DNA of 64,000 bases from Ascidia mentula (lineage: Eukaryota; Chordata; Ascidiacea; Phlebobranchia; Ascidiidae), in the NCBI GenBank assembly GCA_947561715.1, contig OX387201.1, positions 15,018,001 to 15,082,000 on the forward strand, given 5' to 3'. The translations under genes and the position numbers were made by a program. Below are positions 2,876-50,872 of this stretch, in pieces. The notes beneath the pieces were generated by a model that did not search any database, was not told the origin of the DNA, and worked only from the letters and a program-made list of their open reading frames with translations. Every line of letters begins with the position of its first letter. The first letter of the stretch is position 1.

Positions 2876-5800
2876 CTATTTCTGTCCGCTGTATCGATAT
2901 GGATCATGACCCAAAACAAAGAAATCATCAGCGTATAGATCCCTTAATCTGTTCACATCAGCTTCTGAAATAAGTTGAAGAGCATCGACGGTTGTTTTGC
3001 TTTGAGTAAAAGGTTTTGATTCTCCCGGAAATGTAATGTTTGTGTTGCGACCTCGCTGAACAAACTCGAGGAGTCGGTTGGATTCATCCACCAAGTTCTC
3101 AAAACGCATCACCATGCTGTATGTGAACGAACACGGCTGACATAATAACACTTGAGGGCGCCAATGCACGTCCATTTGGTGAGCAGTTTTGCCTCGTTGA
3201 AAAGAGAGCACGTGTCTGCAAATTATTTACAGATATATGTCTTTAAAGTATAATGCTTCATTGCCCAAAATAATGCATACTACCCATATTTTTAACGAAC
3301 TGCCATTGAAAGCGTTGTTATATTTATTAAAATTAAACTTTGCTATCCATCAGTTGACCAGCACAACTAATATTGCTCTAAAACAACTAACCTGTTCGGG
3401 ATAATATCCAAATCAGCATTTTAAACCCTTTTTCAATTGGTTTGGATGCAAGTCACGACGAACGTAAAACTTCAAAGACAAACAGCATTTGGAACTAACC
3501 TGATAAATTGCTGGAAAGAAATTTCGCCAGTTTGAAGAGTGCGACGGTACGCGATTACGTCATTTTTCTTTTTCTGTTCCAGTTGAGTGAACTGCGATGA
3601 GTTCAGTAACGCTTCCAAACCACCTGTGGCCAAAGGAACTCTACAATAAACAAATATCCTGGTATATTTTTTGTATGCAAGATTTTGAGAATTTCTTTGA
3701 AAGTTTCCTTTTGTATTGGAAGTATAGTAAAGATCGAAAAGGGCGGCTAGGTGGAAAGGGTAAACAAAAAAGAACAGACGAAAAGAGGAAAGCAGACATT
3801 GGAGATGAAGTATATGGAGTGACTTTAACTAAAACATCACGATCTTGGTATTTCGCGAGAAAGCTATTCCCCTGTGCGCTGTGGTTTTCCGCTTCGTCGC
3901 GTTTCCTTGCGTTGCTATGGCCGATTGAACATCGCTCTCAGGCTTTAGCCACAAAAGATCGCCTGAACAAGCTAGTTTGGTAATCGGAAATCATTTGCAA
4001 GATTTTTGTTTGCACTAATACTCTTTTTGCCACCAGTAATTGAGACGTACGTAGATATATTGAGAATTACATTAAAACGCTAAATATTTTTTAATACTAT
4101 ATTTTATTATGATATAAGAATTATAGTGTCTGCTACAACGTTGCCATCGAATTTTGCTTTGATTTTAAAGTTTCAATCCCGGCAAAAAGTTCAAAATATT
4201 TTGTGTTTATATTTTTTACCGATTAAAATAAATTAAAAATAACCCTTGTTTTTTTTCGATGATACATTCACTCTTAATCTCCAAAAACGGATATAGTCCA
4301 ACCATCGTGATGGGAAAGATATACGTCACATTACGTGGGGTTTGGATGACTTTGTAACCAAAGCTGCTTGGCGACAAGAACGACCACAGGAGAAACAATA
4401 GAGAACCTCAGATTTGCGCACAGTTCTACGTTTATAAACATTTTGTTATCAGGGTTATTCGGTAGAGTTGGGACTTTCAACTACAATCACAACCAAAACT
4501 TCAGGGTTAGGTCTTCCAGACATGCGTGCGAGACATTTCTCAGGGAATTTACAAAACCGAAATGTGCTGGAACCAGTAAATTAAACCTACTCAAGTTGCA
4601 ACTATATGCTACTATCAATACTCTCACCCGATTCCATGAAGAAAATCCGGAGCCTGTTTTTTAGCGATGGGAATCCCCACCTCGCGTTGGTAATAGTTCA
4701 AAGTTGATCGGTTTGAAAACTTTTCGAAGTAAGCGGACACCAGTCGTTCCAATGGGTGTCGGGTGACCATGAAAGTCGTTTGAACTTTGACCATCTCCTT
4801 GGCTTGCTCCTCAGTTACACTACAATAAGAATAGATAGGATTTGTTAGCTATAGATAAGAGTTGTGTCACAATAACTGGAAGATTCTTTTTATCGAAATT
4901 CTGTTCTTTTTTTAAGACCTTTGGAACATGTGGGAAAAGAAGTTGGAGTTATGAAAAAACTTTCCATTGCAGTGTGGTATAGTATGAAAATATCTACGTT
5001 TCTTTGCAATATTATGGCTTTTTTTTGCACATATATCTACGATTCTGTTATTTAAAAATGTGATGAGGTAGTCAAGTGTTTGTGATGCCGTCTTGAAAGA
5101 AGTTATGGCTTTAAACTTTTAAAAAATACACTTTTATCAACTTAATTGGTGTAACTGGAAACTTTAAATGACATCACAACCATCAGTACATCCGAAAACG
5201 CTCCGCTCAACCAATTTTTTCAAGTATTCCTTCAATTTCACATCAGGTTCAAATTAATGAAATGAATATTTTTTTGAGCCTTGTCCGGTCCGTTCCAACA
5301 TAGTTTTTCTTTTCTTGCTTATATTTTGTTCATACGTTTCAAACACTGATATTCCAAAAAGTTACAAGTAATCTTCTATGAAAAACTATATTAAAACGAT
5401 GATTCGATTCATTACTGGTGCTGCCAGGCATATTACCGACACAAAAAATTCTTTCAGGAATAATATTTATAAATACCAACGTTTCGGTTGATATATAGCA
5501 GTCTCTATCACACACTTGTGTACTCACATAAGCGTACAAAGGTTGTGACGCGCTTGGACAACTTTGGTCAAGACGCCCAACCAAGTAGAAAACCTAGTCG
5601 GGATTCGTGGCCAGTATAACTTTGTTCATAACCGTCATTGCTCTGCCAAACCTTTTTACGAATCAATCCAAAGCTGTTGTGGTGAACGTAATTTCACGGT
5701 TGTTTGAAATAATTTTACAAACTATTCTAAATGGCAGAAGTATAGAAACCTACTTTCCTAATGTCTTGAGCGGAAATCCACCGTAAGCAATCCGGTGCAT

Positions 5801-8316
5801 CAGTTCTTTCGTAAAGTTTCCATCAAAACCGTTTAGTTGCATCAAAACTTTCTGCCATGTGGAGCTTGCAACCTACAAAAACTTTTCTGTTGGTTTCGAA
5901 CCTGCAAATCTATTAAAAAGTTTTCATATCCACGCCGAAAGCTAAGAAAAATTGCAACAAATTCATACTTTCAATAAGCCAGACAGCAAGGAAATCCATC
6001 GCAATAATTGACGAAACCCTTCTAAAGAATCATGTGTTTTGTATTCATCAATACCTTATTTACTAATACATACTTTGGGAAGTTCGCACATAATCAATGG
6101 TATTTTGTCGTTGTACTTGAAGCGCTTAGTATTAAATGATCCTGGTTTGATGTTGCGTTCTTCGCATCTACGTCGAATCTCCTGAAGTCTACAACCGTAC
6201 GGTGGCTCGGAGGAAAGGGGATGCACCCCACCGAAAGTTGACGGGCACTGGGGTGGCGTTGGGAAGGCGTAAGTTGGGCATGAGGCTGATAAACAGATTG
6301 TGTCAAGTTTTATTAATTTTTTTCAATTGGTAAAATAAATCATTAAGTTTGCAGGCATGGCAGCCCAGGCTTGGCAGCCCAGACTTGGCAGATCATGCAT
6401 TGCAGCTATACGGTAGCTGTGATCGCCAAGCAAGGACCTGCGCAGTGGGACAATCCTGCCAATCATGTCATTGCATGAAAAATTACTGCATTGGTAAAAT
6501 CAATTGCCGCAAGTCAAACACAGTTTCGAATGCATTTTGTTGCAGAGTATAGAATTTTTTTTTGTTTCATCAGCCTATAATAAATTAAGAAGAGTTACAA
6601 ATTATTAGATAAGGTTCTCCCAGCTACACCCCTATTAAGCAGTTGGTGCTTCAGCTGCCTGAGAACTATGCTCATGTTCATGTACGCAAGCAGCCTTCAC
6701 GTTTTGGTTGTTTCTCCACATCGTAATCAGACACATAAACGTTACATGTCCTGGCATTGAACTTATTTTCACTTTTCGAGAAAACTAGCAGTCAGTCTTT
6801 ATGACAAAATTGCGTGACTTCATGGAAAATAAGCAAACACTAGTTCTTAAAAATCAAATATGACTGGAAGGCATTGGTGAAGGATGTTTTTTTCTTTGCA
6901 TGCTGTGTTTGTTGGATTATTTGTACTGCAAATGTTTTTGGACAAGGTGCAGTTAGGTTTGTCAATGTTACTTTTAAGTAATATTAGAAAAGTCTAGAAA
7001 TGCGCTCAGGTAGTTATATTTATTTGGTCATGTTGAAAGTGTGTTCATAAATAAAATAAAGTATTTCAAAATCGAATGCGTGTTTTCAAATATGTCGTCG
7101 AATAAACTTTTGAAAGGGAAAGACTGGCGGAGGATAGGTCTGCGTGGAATATTCTGCGTGGCGTCGAAAAAATGCATTGTTTAGATAGGATAAGGCGCCT
7201 TTTTTGCAGATATCGAATAGTTTCAAACATAGGACAATCCACAGATTACGTTACCTTAAAGGTCAGGAAAGGGTTTTGCATCACACAAAAATATGTCATT
7301 GTGACGTCACAAACCAAAGACTTATTTGTCCCTAATTAACGGAAGACCATAGGGTATAGCAGAAACGACATAACTCTGTACTTCGATAAGACAGGAATGG
7401 TGCGTTTCTTTGCTAAGTGACATTACATGACGCCATTCTGGATGTGATGTCATGACTTTAACCTTCCCTTTGTGTTGACTTTAATTTGATGATTCCAACA
7501 TTTCTAGTTACGAACTATATTGCGAAAAATACATTAGTGGTTGAATTGTGGCGAATTAAATAAATGATTTATGACTCGAACTCGTAGGCAACGCCACTGT
7601 CGGGCAAAAAGTGGTATTATGACAGAGTAACTGTGTTGCATAATCAGCTAATTTGGTCGGTCTTTCTCGGCGGCCAAAATTCAATTAAGCTACTTCTATC
7701 TTTTGCTGTGAGTGGACAAAACGACAATGCTAAACTAACGGTTTGTCTCTGTCGTGTTTTCAAAAATCTGTCTTCGGCTTAAATTAACGTAAAATCCGTT
7801 AATTACACTTGTTGACTTTTTGTCCTCTGTTTAATGCAATATTATGCTAAACCAGTTTTACAATGTTTTCCATTCCTACGCATAAGGCTTGCTGCCAGCA
7901 CTCGCGCACGACCGAAGCGCCTTCTATTACGTCACGCAACAATATCTCGCTTTCGTACGATTTCGTTCGCAGCGGCAAAAGTGCAACTTTGATCAGCTGT
8001 ATCTCAGAAACCAGTCGCCGTATCAAGCTACATTTTTCGCCAAAAATGTTCTAAAGTTATGGACATCTCTTAGGTTGATTATTAACATGTTTCATTTTTA
8101 CGTGTCATATGCACTTTAAGTGTGCATCATATCATGCCAGAAGTGTGAACCTATGTAAAATTTACTATATTTATTTATCCTCTTACCTTTTAGGCTTTCA
8201 TGCTTGGATTGAACATATGGAAGTGAATATAAACCAAATGTGAAAATCCAAAGCAATGCAGCAGCAACCATCAAAAGCAGCACGTAACCAAAACACTTTC
8301 TTCGTCCCACCCCCAT
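2876..8316 (-). CDS. Carbohydrate sulfotransferase (CHST8-14 / Sulfotransfer_2 type), complete six-exon gene
   Basis: Coding exons on the minus strand: 8187-8316, 6074-6285, 5754-5872, 4628-4819, 3500-3640 and 2876-3215. All splice sites are GT-AG and all phases join, giving 377 aa. Exon 1 encodes a type II signal anchor (residues about 8-30, FGYVLLLMVAAALLWIF), so the enzyme should sit in the Golgi with a luminal catalytic domain. The 5' PAPS-binding loop is ELPKVASSTWQKV (residues about 111-123) and the 3' PAPS-binding motif is VTRHPLERLVSAY (172-184). The family hallmarks HWRPQ...CQPC (from 282) and a C-terminal ISEADVNRLRDLYADDF follow. The family transfers sulfate from PAPS to sugars such as GalNAc or GlcA; the acceptor cannot be told. 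The PAPS loop has SST where vertebrate enzymes usually have CTN or GCT. A minus-strand AATAAA lies at 2630-2635. Length fits the family. Confidence 0.9.
6349..6552 (+). other. Cysteine-rich open frame inside sulfotransferase intron 1
   Basis: A plus-strand frame of 67 codons with many cysteines toward its end (GSC, RTC, SCQSCHC, NYC, NC, FCC). Its first half overlaps repeat sequence also seen near 22960-23080 and includes GGCAGCCCAGGC stretches of the SINE tail. The cysteine-rich look may therefore come from repeat DNA. No signal peptide or splice partner is seen. It lies antisense within the first intron of the sulfotransferase gene. Confidence 0.2.
7120..7770 (+). repeat. Inverted repeat family, arm at 7 kb
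   Basis: Reads as the reverse complement of about 44955-45720, with substitutions and small gaps. Shared landmarks include GATATCGAATAGTTTCAAAC, GTGACGTCACAAACCAAAG and TTTGTCTCTGTCGTGTTTTC. It lies in sulfotransferase intron 1. No protein is recognised; it may be a fragment of a mobile element. Confidence 0.8.
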
Positions 8317-46140: not shown

Positions 46141-47135
46141 ACCGCGTCAGTCAAACTGATGATGGCATAAGTTCTTGCCGAAACGTTTTTCAAACATGAC
46201 AATGTTAATCACAGTATGGGTCAGTATTTTTGTTCACAGAATTATGAGTTACGTGATTTGTGTTCCTAACTTCACATAACAATACATAAAAACATAAAAT
46301 ATCGATCAAAAACAATGACAAAATACTCGCTTGGCGACAATAAAAAACACTGTGCAGCGCGACGCCCATTTCAAGACTAACAGATTGTTCACGCAGCACT
46401 ACTTGCACCTGCCAATTAACCAATTAGCGACTTGTACGGGATGTGGCCAAAATAGAAAAAAAACTAGAAAATAAAAGTAAATACGAAGGGAAAATTGATA
46501 AAAACAACAAAGATAATCTAAGAAAGTACAAAGAAAAACATTAGTTGTGCCTTGTTTCAATTTCGCTACAATTAATAACGATATGAGTTGAAAAAAGTCA
46601 TCTGTCCTTCGTGTACATAAGGTTTGTTTGTCAGCCGTGACGTCAATAGTTCCAGCGCATTCAGCTTCACTTTTATGTTTTCTGATCAAACAAATCGGGA
46701 AACTTGAGAAGCCAAAGTTCAAACCCGCCATGAAAATATGTTTGTGTCACGTTTGCGGCGTTAAAAACACTATTTGTTTCTTGAGATTAATTAGCAGTAA
46801 GCAAAGTTAAGTGTTAGTACATGTATTAGTCATGGCGTATGTTAAAGGTTTAAATAGATTTTGTAATATCTAGAAAGAAGTATTTATGGCCAATAAACAA
46901 AAAATGGCGGGCAATATACGACAAATATAACAGGCGAATGTGTGTAGACAAGTTAATACCTATAATGATTTGAAGATCAATAGAGTTTAAAGTTGTATGT
47001 AGTCGGCTCAACAACAACATCAACAAAAACTGCCCGTTACCATAGGAAAACATCGTTTTTTCTTTTGTTGTTGTACAACAAAACTAAAACGTGTTATGAC
47101 GCCAGTCTCAATACAGGAAAAATATAGGAAGCCTG

Positions 47136-47155
47136 CACTGTAAACCAGTTTGGGT
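47136..47155 (+). repeat. Left terminal inverted repeat
   Basis: Twenty bases starting CACTGTAAACC; pairs with 50266-50285 with one mismatch. Confidence 0.9.
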
Positions 47156-47423
47156 CAAAAAAGCCCAAAAAAATTGGGTCTGTTCGTTGGGAAACCCAAA
47201 ATATTTTTTGGGTTATTCAAACCCAAAAATTTTTGGGTTAAATATCTTCTTACCCTATAGATTTACCCAATAATCTTTGGGTAGAAACACATTCGACCCA
47301 ATTTTATCTGGTCACTATTTTGGGTTTGAATTCACTATGCCCAGAATCTGTGTCATTTTTTGCCCATTAATCATAGATATTGCACAGCTTGTTTTTTCGA
47401 AGAATCACATTTATTGTTTCTTG

Positions 47424-49367
47424 TCATTCTGTAGAAAGAACATGAACATTTAAAATAACTACAGTCAACACAAATAACCACAGGCTTAGTTTGTCAAGTT
47501 GAAGTTTTAACTCCCGCACTGAATCATACATTGAGTTTTCAGGAATATTAAGCAAATATGTCTGAAGAAATTGCAGTGTTTTGGTTATATGTGGGCAGTA
47601 TTGATAATTGAGAATATAATACACAGCAAATAAAGCTATGATGCCTTTAGAAATGCTGTCCACACTGAGCACAGGGTTCTTCTCCGCAAAAAGTGCATTT
47701 TTTTGCGGCAAGAAAATGTCTCCATATACAAACAACACAGTTTGTTGCCGATCTCCAAAATCGGCCCTGATATCTTCAAATGTTGTGTTGATCTAAATAG
47801 TAAAACAATTTAGTTACATACTCGGTTACTATTGGCCTGTGCTAAATAATAAGGATGCTGCTTTCCAATACCTAAATTGTACTTTTTACACTATGCCCAA
47901 TTTTAAATAATTATGCACAGAATAACTTTTTGGAAGCTAATAGCCTTGCTAGTCTTGTGGATATAAAATGAGTACATTAGGTCAATACAAAAACTGCCCT
48001 CACACTAATGACCTGGCCAATGACCCAAACAACAACAAAAATTTTCCATGAAAATATGAAATATGATTGCTTATACTTACAGGGCACAAATCTAGCAAAT
48101 ACCACTCCTGCCAACTTGCTGTTTTGTATTGGACTTCGATTAAGTACACAAAAGTAATCTTCTAACCATAAAGTGAACATCTACAAAAACAAAAATTTTG
48201 TAACCTTTTTAAGTGATAGTTTTTTCAGGCTTACCAGCAAAGCAATCATTCTCATCAAATGGCAAAAAGTCCAATATTTTTTTCATATAGGATGTTTTGT
48301 TTGGTTTTCCCGAAGAATATTTAATAATTGTTTGAAACAAGTTTTTGGCAATGCTGTTCAAAGCAGCTTCATCAGTAAAATTTTGTTTTCTTTTAAATTC
48401 ACGAAGCAACTACAAGAAATAGAAATTACATTAAATTCAGTCCATAAATTTACAGTACCGCAGTCAAGCTATGGTTCAAAGCCGCTACAAATTGGCAAGT
48501 CAGACGAAGATTTAAAGAATCAGCAGTGGAGCTCTGACTTGTCAATATGTGGCTTTGATGTATATGTAACAAAAATACATTAAAATACAATTAACATACC
48601 TTGTTGTACATAGTTAAAGCTGGCCATTCTTTTATTAATGTCATAAGAGAAGGATTATTTTCCAAAACAAAGTTTTTGCGGACACAAAATGTTTCCTCCA
48701 TTTTTTCTGCAATAAGTTTCTTATTGCGCAGCAAAGTTGTTTTTTTAAATTCATGCAGCAGGATCTAAAATAATCAAGTCAAAAATCCATCATAACAAAG
48801 CTTTAAAAAGTTTAAATCCATACTTCTTTTGCCTCGTCATACAAGTTTTCGCCCCGTGTATGTACTTCATTTGATTGATGAGAAACCTTTCTTCGCTTTA
48901 AAGAAGGGTTGTTATATGCTCTTTTGATTTAGGGGTACCCACGACACTTCCGCTGTTTTTTAGCATGCACATTTAATCGGTCTGATATATTTTTGTACCA
49001 AAATGCCTGTGAAATGTAAATAAATAAGCATGGTTATTGAATTACTTGGTAAGTTATACTTCACTCTAACCTTGCCATCTGTTGCACCTAGTCCAAGACG
49101 AGCTGATTTGTACTGCTCCAAGAAAGCATCTAAACGCCTCGTTCTTTAGATGTCGGCATGGTCTGCAAAATATATATATATAGCTTATAGCCTACCTTTT
49201 CCAAGTTAAGTGTAATTTATCAAAGCTTTGGCAATTTTTTCACGTTTAAAGAAGTATATGTAAAACTTACTCTCAATTTCAGCATTTATTTGAAGAACTT
49301 CCCCTTGTGGGACATCTTCCAGAGTAGTCTTGACAAAATCAATTAAACCCTGGATGCTTAAATCCAT
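47424..49367 (-). pseudogene. SAMD3-like multi-exon gene inside the CACTA-like transposon, degenerate
   Basis: Minus-strand exons: 49271-49367 (MDLSIQGLIDFVKTTLEDVP), 49071-49162 (RTRRLDAFLEQYKSARLG), 48824-49006 (FWYKNISDRLNVHAKKQRK ...), 48600-48764 (KMEETFCVRKNFVLENNP, LIKEWPAL), 48235-48409 (ALNSIAKNLFQTIIKYSSG) and the last, 47424-47792 (IIALFAVYYILNYQYC, TLQFLQTYLLNI). The RK-V-ENP-L-L-EWPAL block and the FAVYYILNYQY-TL-FLQ block match the multi-copy uncharacterised SAMD3-like proteins of fish and invertebrates. The first five exons join in phase. There is an in-frame TAA in the second and third exons, and the candidate exon 48081-48180 does not join in phase, so this copy is decayed. 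A minus-strand AATAAA follows the stop at about 47411. Function unknown. Confidence 0.7.
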
Positions 49368-50265
49368 ACTAAGTCTTTTTCACTTTTTTTGATTAACTCA
49401 CAAAATGATACACGAAACAGCTTACAACACTACCTGTAATTAAGAAAAAGGCGCGCCCAAACGTTCGGTAATCAAGTTCGCACAGGTAGAGACAAAGAAG
49501 TTCAAAGAACTAAGACTGGGGAGGCAAGTTAGTTTGGCGCCCTTTTCAGTGAGCAGTCAGGCGTGACGCGCACATTGTTTGAACTTTAAAAAAATAATTT
49601 TGAAACACAAGAATTGTTTTAAAAAAGTTTTTGTACTTCACACGGTTGAAGGATTGTAAATTAGAATTTTTTTTATAGTTTTAATGGTAAATCTGTTTCG
49701 TCGAGCAGATTTCAATAAAATTCAGATAATTCAAGTGGTTTATTTTCACAAGATTGAGATTTATTATGAGCTCATTATGAGGATAATACACCATAGTAAG
49801 AGTATAATACAAATAAACTATTTTTAATTCTATCGCAGCATTACGTAATCAACCGGTGTCAAAAACATTTCGCAGCAGCGAGTGGTGCAAACAAAAGTTC
49901 TAACGGCGTAAAGCGATTTGTAGCTATGCCGTATGAATGAAATTTTTGTCATTCTTTCTTTATAAGCTAGATAGCCCTTAAACTGACATGTATGCAAACC
50001 ATACCGACGATGTAAGGTTCAGACTTGTTTGCAAAATTGATAATGTATGGTAAAATAAAACAAAAAAAATAACCCAATTATTTTGGGTACAGTACAAGCA
50101 TCACTTTACCCAAACACTTTTGGGTAAACAACAGTAAGCCCAATAATTTTGGGTATAATTAATTGGGTAACTTTCCTTTGGGTATAAATCATAAAGGTAA
50201 AGCAGCATTTTACCCAAAAACTTTGGGTATGTTAACATTGTACCCAAAGTTGCCTTTGTAATTTT

Positions 50266-50285
50266 ACCCAAATTGGTTTACAGTG
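50266..50285 (-). repeat. Right terminal inverted repeat
   Basis: Inverse of the left terminus; ends in CAGTG followed by TG. Confidence 0.9.
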
Positions 50286-50872
50286 TGAAGTTCAGCGAAC
50301 TTAGTAGGTAGACCTACACAGTCGACAAAGTAAGCTATTAAAAATTCTTTCTTGTATAATTTCATTGAATTGGAAAATTATTAGTGATTAACATTTTTAA
50401 AATCGACCCGGCATTGTCACAAAACTTATCTTAATTTGTTTTTTGGTGGAATATTTTTATATTTGCCTAATAGCGCAACCTGTAGTTAGCGTGTACAGTC
50501 GTCTGCGCAACGATAATTGGCATCGCAAAATAGATAACGGCCAAACTTAGCAAACAAGGGCAGTTTAACTTTGTGAATGTATGCACATCCTGTAGTAGTA
50601 GGATGTTGCTGCTACCAGCCTTGTTGTGTGAAATTAATTCTGATAAACAACCGAAGCCAGTTGTTGGCGGTGGTGGATATTTTGGTGATATGGTCTTTGT
50701 GTTATTTGCAACTATATGAAAAGAAATTATGTTAATGATAGGATTGACTTCAATTCATGTTTTATTTTGAAATAGTTTTTTTCTTGTTTGCAGTTATATT
50801 TTTTGTCATTTATTTTGATGGATAATTGCTTTAAATTTGAAAGAAGCTACAGCCAACACTCGACCACTCATC

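Follow-up and report, generated by a model that had tools for sequence, protein, structure and literature searches.

SAMD3-like genes as partners of Transposase_21-type transposases in CACTA elements of Ascidia mentula, and a transposase-less derivative that retains one

Transposition of plant CACTA elements needs two proteins, the transposase TnpD and TnpA, the latter as a binder of the subterminal repeats; a deletion derivative can move in trans as long as its cis-acting ends are kept (PMC2613891, in the parts of its text that were available). Two-product CACTA elements in plants and CACTA elements in animals are already known (PMC1636069, also available in part). In this study, we describe a transposon of CACTA type in the ascidian Ascidia mentula, located at positions 47136 to 50285 of a 64,000-nucleotide stretch of contig OX387201.1 (the window), together with its relatives in the genome. 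We take its internal gene to be SAMD3-like; no SAMD3 sequence was found in Pfam or among the PDB sequences searched. SAMD3-like proteins are abundant in animals and form a large unexplained group of predicted proteins. We show that, in the A. mentula genome, the second gene of a CACTA/EnSpm element is usually SAMD3-like. The window element is a deleted, non-autonomous CACTA/EnSpm (CMC) member whose complete relatives carry two genes, the SAMD3-like product probably acting in the manner of TnpA/TNP1. Among the papers listed in our full-text searches, with Repbase and most subscription papers outside their scope, none tied SAMD3-like proteins to CACTA elements in its title or the start of its abstract.

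The genome (196 Mb in 79 contigs) was searched with seven protein queries and the matches were merged; the search scores the best candidates only, so that locus numbers are lower bounds. At least 85 transposase loci were found, 50 of them with a merged match of at least 1 kb, besides at least 20 SAMD3-like loci of the window subfamily and at least 92 others. A transposase lies within 10 kb of 59 of these 92, compared with 0.85 expected by random placement. Counted from the transposase side, a SAMD3-like exon was found within 10 kb at 45 of the 50 long loci, and a search with the protein of element L061 adds two more (C1:1746419 and C70:20542577), so that 47 of 50 are paired; with fragments included the figure is 64 of all 85 transposase loci. 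Defining the transposase by Pfam PF02992 yields 18 genome loci (10 above the cut-off), all of the kind called F3 below, and a SAMD3-like exon lies 1.7-1.9 kb from every one of them. Where the strand arrangement is clear, the SAMD3-like gene follows downstream on the same strand in 49 of 58 cases, seven pairs are divergent and two are arranged otherwise. Pairs on different contigs have gaps between the two genes that recur to the base (569, 573 and 642 bp), and their strand order is the same. Copies inside one group do not count as independent cases; what carries the argument is the existence of four groups of elements, the recurring gaps and the matched ends.

It might be argued that SAMD3-like genes belong to the host and are found near transposons only because both accumulate where repeats are dense, and 32 of the 92 loci indeed have no transposase within 15 kb. 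However, neither the exact recurrence of the gaps nor the constant strand order fits such clustering, and in the three complete elements (L053, L060 and L061) both genes lie inside CACTG...CAGTG ends with 2-bp duplications; we give this explanation hardly any credence. The sequence-only reading had proposed that SAMD3-like proteins are encoded by transposons and possibly take part in transposition. The first half is borne out by the long transposase loci, the PF02992 loci and the complete elements, while the second half is something that we infer. The opposite picture, similar termini around unrelated DNA only and SAMD3-like genes never flanked by them, was not seen. In the window subfamily, four of 20 SAMD3-like loci have a transposase within 10 kb, a low proportion that is expected of a deleted form. 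On contig C69, a cluster of SAMD3-like exons (C69:21215424, C69:21250514, C69:21403948 and C69:21410004) has no detected transposase within 15 kb of any member, and three of the four have 233-aa frames with one TGA each. These loci could be derivatives or host copies.

The elements fall into four divergent groups. F1 comprises the window subfamily and the long copy L053. F2 is represented by L060 (7,174 bp, CACTGAAAAAAAA to TTTTTTTACAGTG, TA/TA duplication), which has a divergent gene pair as in L053 and carries 13 and 10 TTGGGT sites in its outer 350 bp, with four inside. In F3 (L059 and L061) the transposase occupies one frame (815 aa open; 871 aa) and the SAMD3-like gene lies downstream on the same strand. 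The L059 frame exceeds the PF02992 cut-off; L061 is complete, with 5,917 bp, a TA/TA duplication and no TTGGGT site at either end (0 + 0). F4 consists of three transposases that were partnerless in the first searches; when their flanks were read, a SAMD3-like gene was found downstream of all three. These genes have a different N-terminus, with core and last exon as in the other groups. Terminal inverted repeats that start with CAC(T) are present in the window element (CACTGTAAACC), in L060 (CACTGAAAAAAAA/CACTGTAAAAAAA) and in L061 (CACTGTAAAAAA), and a Transposase_21 (tnp2) transposase is present in the complete family members and absent from the window copy.

In profile comparisons, the last exons of the SAMD3-like genes matched with probabilities of 95.6-96.3 in all three group pairings; for the cores the values were 93.7 (F1/F2 to F4), 63 (F1/F2 to F3) and 31 (F3 to F4), and all shuffled controls (four sets of 20) stayed at or below 2.6. 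Moreover, C52:14119248-14120276 was matched by both the F3 core query and the F4 last-exon query. The N-terminal domain that stands in place of SAM in F4 (L062 709-993, L067 300-524, L068 277-582) has a pattern that we take to be PB1-like; Pfam gave no match for it. In this group, a different oligomerising domain may have taken the place of SAM.

The window element measures exactly 3,150 bp, has the termini CACTGTAAACC...GGTTTACAGTG and is flanked by TG on each side, at 47134-47135 and 50286-50287. The left terminal inverted repeat, CACTGTAAACCAGTTTGGGTCAAA (47136-47159, plus strand), and the right one (50262-50285, minus strand) are perfect over the first 12 bp. The left subterminal region (47136-47395, 260 bp) holds 10 TTGGGT/ACCCAA sites, where 300 Markov resamplings gave a mean of 0.57 and a maximum of 4, and the right one (50026-50285, likewise 260 bp) holds 11, where they gave a mean of 0.87 and a maximum of 6. 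Elsewhere the motif occurs once in the 2,630-bp interior of the element and 23 times in the remaining 60.9 kb of the window. A DNA search of the genome with the element returned 52 matches: 11 copies, that of the window among them, span it completely at 93-100% identity, a further one breaks off at 2908, and the others are partial or divergent. From 19 copies extracted, L049, L052, L054/L055 and L058 were excluded because one end is missing. A 2-bp duplication (TG, TA, AG, CA, AT or TT) is perfect in 14 of the 15 two-ended copies, L048 being the sole exception, and a 3-bp duplication occurs in none of the 15. The full-length copies and the 2-bp duplications mark a genuine transposon that has spread recently. 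A DNA transposon with these ends, TG flanks and terminal motif clusters, as read from the sequence alone, is thereby confirmed; as to the duplications of 2-3 bp proposed for its relatives, the shorter length holds and the longer does not. The exact CACTGTAAACC proved uninformative as a family marker on its own, this 11-mer having 146 genome matches against 147 for the reversed control. Five exact matches to it lie on one strand within 8 kb at C67:2653791-2661518, perhaps as a tandem array.

How the window form arose is seen by comparison with L053 (contig C70, 6,699 bp), whose ends are like those of the window element. The two match in three blocks (1-2036, 2051-2908 and 2899-3150 of the window element), between which L053 carries two extra stretches. 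The first is the second exon of the SAM domain: exons 1 and 2 together read MDLSIQGLIDFVKTTLEDV...EIERNKIDGKALLCTKDCFDMFKCTFPSTPNGYLFRLFGAFHKKF, and the following exon continues in phase. Three acceptors would keep the frame of exon 2 open, and the one chosen yields a SAM-like sequence. The second, of about 3 kb, contains transposase exons on the plus strand: one of 245 aa with C2H2 fingers, one with DVHHDVFEGV and one of 305 aa. Zap1_zf1 scored above its Pfam cut-off in these exons. They are those of a divergent CACTA transposase and gave no direct match to PF02992 in Pfam; a search with the L053 transposase exon recovers loci of the PF02992 type. In the window, the first deletion junction lies at 49171-49186 (element 2036/2051 against L053 2041/2601; about 560 bp lost with SAM exon 2) and the second at 50034-50043 (about 3 kb lost with the transposase). 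At the latter, element positions 2899-2908 match L053 twice, in the block that ends at 3478 and in the one that starts at 6449, a 10-bp overlap that resembles what a microhomology deletion leaves. Since both stretches are missing in the window copy, the window form is a deletion derivative without the transposase and without half of the SAM domain. That SAMD3-like is the only gene, as in the sequence-only reading, does not hold for the family, which is one of two-gene elements with SAMD3-like as the second gene.

Two further long copies were observed. L054/L055 (C52:20915792-20929345), a long member of the window family, is interrupted at element position 2750/2751 by an insert of about 6 kb. 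This insert, a nested MULE-like transposon, contains a transposase exon of MULE/ZSWIM type (PF21056, PF10551) together with a frame for an Ulp1 protease and a PHD finger (PF02902, PF00628). L058 is likewise a long CACTA copy; its left end is truncated, and a frame at 15-335, presumably resembling a retrotransposon gag, adjoins it.

The SAMD3-like gene of the window copy lies on the minus strand. Its exon 1 (49271-49367, MDLSIQGLIDFVKTTLEDV...) encodes the first half of the SAM domain, with an ATG and a GTAAG donor, and is the same exon as in L053. Core exons follow at 48600-48764 (LLHEFKKTTLLRNKKLIAEKMEETF...KEWPAL), which aligns with the cores of other groups, and at 48235-48409 (LLREFKRKQNFTDEAALNSIAKNLF...), and the last exon (NTTFEDIRADFGDRQQ...YYILNYQYCPH...) lies at 47424-47792 and is the one that the profiles relate to the last exons of other groups. 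In 16 of 19 aligned copies this exon has an earlier stop, after DKxSL. An AATAAA lies past it at 47410-47415. With SAM exon 2 deleted, joining exon 1 directly to the next exon leads to a stop after five residues, and the gene of the window copy is a broken relic. What had been read as a spliced minus-strand gene with a polyadenylation signal does have GT-AG exon borders and that signal; it is not an intact gene.

A second transposase-less derivative was found in F2. C52:18052702-18056352 and C70:716519-719864 match L060 on either side of an identical gap, from query position 3333 to 6809, which takes out every transposase exon seen in L060; on the left, the comparison covers the element from about 40 bp inwards of its end, where the L060 query started. 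The C52 derivative keeps all SAMD3-like exons seen in L060, and that on C70 lacks a further 389 bp including one core exon. The breakpoints common to two loci indicate that this derivative moved after its formation. Together with a partial F2 copy at C1:15232383, these two account for three of the 32 transposase-less loci. Derivatives that kept the SAMD3-like gene and lost the transposase have thus arisen separately in two subfamilies, F1 and F2. Such retention may be chance or may reflect a use to the element; the searches favour copies that keep SAMD3-like sequence, and we place little weight on it.

In the 3.1-kb family (11 copies, L039-L049), nonsynonymous variants number 28 (29.9 expected), synonymous ones 16 (10.4 expected) and stops 2 (2.3 expected) over 642 coding sites of the SAMD3-like exons, the expectation being taken from the non-coding sites of the same copies. 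The exons drift neutrally. A pairwise dN/dS of 0.44 among the 11 copies seemed to indicate constraint; the distinct variants set against non-coding rates show none, and this test was preferred to pairwise dN/dS for these copies. The dN/dS between L053 and L055 is 1.05, from five changes only. Between the 3.1-kb and the long lineages, whose two majority sequences differ by 17 synonymous and 21 nonsynonymous changes (L050 being placed with the long copies), dN/dS comes to 0.30-0.35, a value that speaks for selection on the gene at an earlier time. These data bear on the question whether a host SAMD3-like gene was captured by chance and travels as a passenger (Pack-CACTA) with no role in transposition. 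Plant CACTA elements capture host genes, and both the neutral drift and the broken gene of the window family would suit a passenger. Against it stand the pairing of the gene with a transposase, seen across four divergent groups at recurring spacing and orientation, the partners present at all PF02992 loci and in all three flanks of seemingly lone transposases, and the dN/dS between the lineages. The pairing across groups and this dN/dS exclude a late capture in a single family as the source, and we regard chance capture as very unlikely.

From the plan that the elements have in common with plant CACTA elements, namely a transposase, terminal repeat arrays (those of F1 and F2) and a further protein that contains an oligomerising domain, we infer a TnpA-like role for the SAMD3-like protein. 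In the complete elements, CACTG...CAGTG ends enclose two genes, one for a transposase of Transposase_21 type that has C2H2 fingers and the other SAMD3-like; the latter combines an N-terminal SAM domain (PB1-like in some groups) with a conserved helical core and last exon. The core would bind the subterminal repeats (TTTGGGT arrays in the window element), oligomerisation through SAM or PB1 would bring the element ends together for the transposase, and the protein might also regulate the element. The 3.1-kb copies, with ends and repeats kept, would be mobilised in trans by complete relatives. Most likely, the protein is a putative oligomerising, end-binding partner of the transposase; its DNA binding, its pairing of ends and the need for it in excision are all predictions from this plan.

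An N-terminal SAM domain is present in SAMD3-like proteins, and the SAM fold is supported for L061, for which the SAM part of a whole-protein model was used. The comparison with transposase structures that the sequence-only reading had suggested returned the SAM fold and nothing else. A model of the middle domain, from an alignment of five rows, had no recognised fold. A BEN-like or other DNA-binding fold, guessed from the sequence, was not found among PDB or viral matches, where a missing match excludes nothing. Relatives outside the genome were neither confirmed in viral_contigs nor found by sequence in PDB. That no DNA-binding fold was found for the middle domain among these matches counts in favour of the main rival, in which the protein belongs to the element and serves regulation or self-protection instead, for example through host chromatin, silencing or protein partners of SAM/PB1. 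Accessory genes of this kind exist in transposons, as with the TET/JBP dioxygenases in fungal DNA transposons (PMC12730594, in the part available). The near-universal pairing at long transposase loci suits a core function better, as does the two-protein design of plant CACTA elements (PMC2613891, in part); neither point is decisive, and we hold a purely regulatory or anti-silencing role to be unlikely, if less so than capture.

If the end-binding role is true, derivatives that keep the SAMD3-like gene would supply the end-binding protein themselves and depend on other elements for the transposase alone. Tentatively, and with some doubt, animal SAMD3-like proteins at large may regularly serve the CACTA/EnSpm elements of animals as their second protein, an independent counterpart of plant TnpA, and vertebrate SAMD3 may be a domesticated transposon accessory protein. 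An origin hypothesis for vertebrate SAMD3 is thereby supplied. We know of no host SAMD3 that sits inside a transposon; a fish samd3 gene adjoins a sex marker (PMC11258905, in the part available). Were the pairing general, SAMD3-like proteins would shift from host genes to transposon parts, gene counts and claims of expansion in fish and invertebrates would change, and the TnpA-like function would become directly testable.

Compared with known systems, the proteins are like vertebrate and invertebrate SAMD3 and SAMD3-like proteins, a label we presume to be apt, in having a SAM domain followed by a helical region. The ends described here presumably resemble the CACTG ends of zebrafish EnSpm-N elements. 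Zebrafish EnSpm-N6_DR is also a non-autonomous EnSpm derivative in an animal genome, with 346 bp as compared to 3,150 bp for the window element (PMC3485254, in part). SmTRC1 and other CACTA-like (TRC) elements of animals and fungi have a Transposase_21 transposase, a 2-bp duplication and spliced transcripts as here, but their terminal inverted repeats start with CCC instead of CAC, and a single locus yields their additional products through splicing, with no SAMD3-like second gene mentioned in the available part of the source (PMC1636069). The plant elements En/Spm, Tam1 and Tgmt share CACTA-type ends, short inverted repeats, subterminal arrays, a tnp2-domain transposase (TnpD/TNP2) with a second protein (TnpA/TNP1), and deletion derivatives, whereas the duplication is 3 bp in Tgmt and 2 bp here (PMC2613891, in part). 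The likeness of the SAMD3-like protein to TnpA is one of element plan, and no relation in sequence is claimed. In plants, TnpA-type mRNAs arise by alternative splicing of one gene, whereas SAMD3-like stands as a gene of its own, in divergent or tandem arrangement. Should the pairing hold generally, animal CACTA elements would gain a two-protein design like that of plants, in which such a second gene replaces the splice product.
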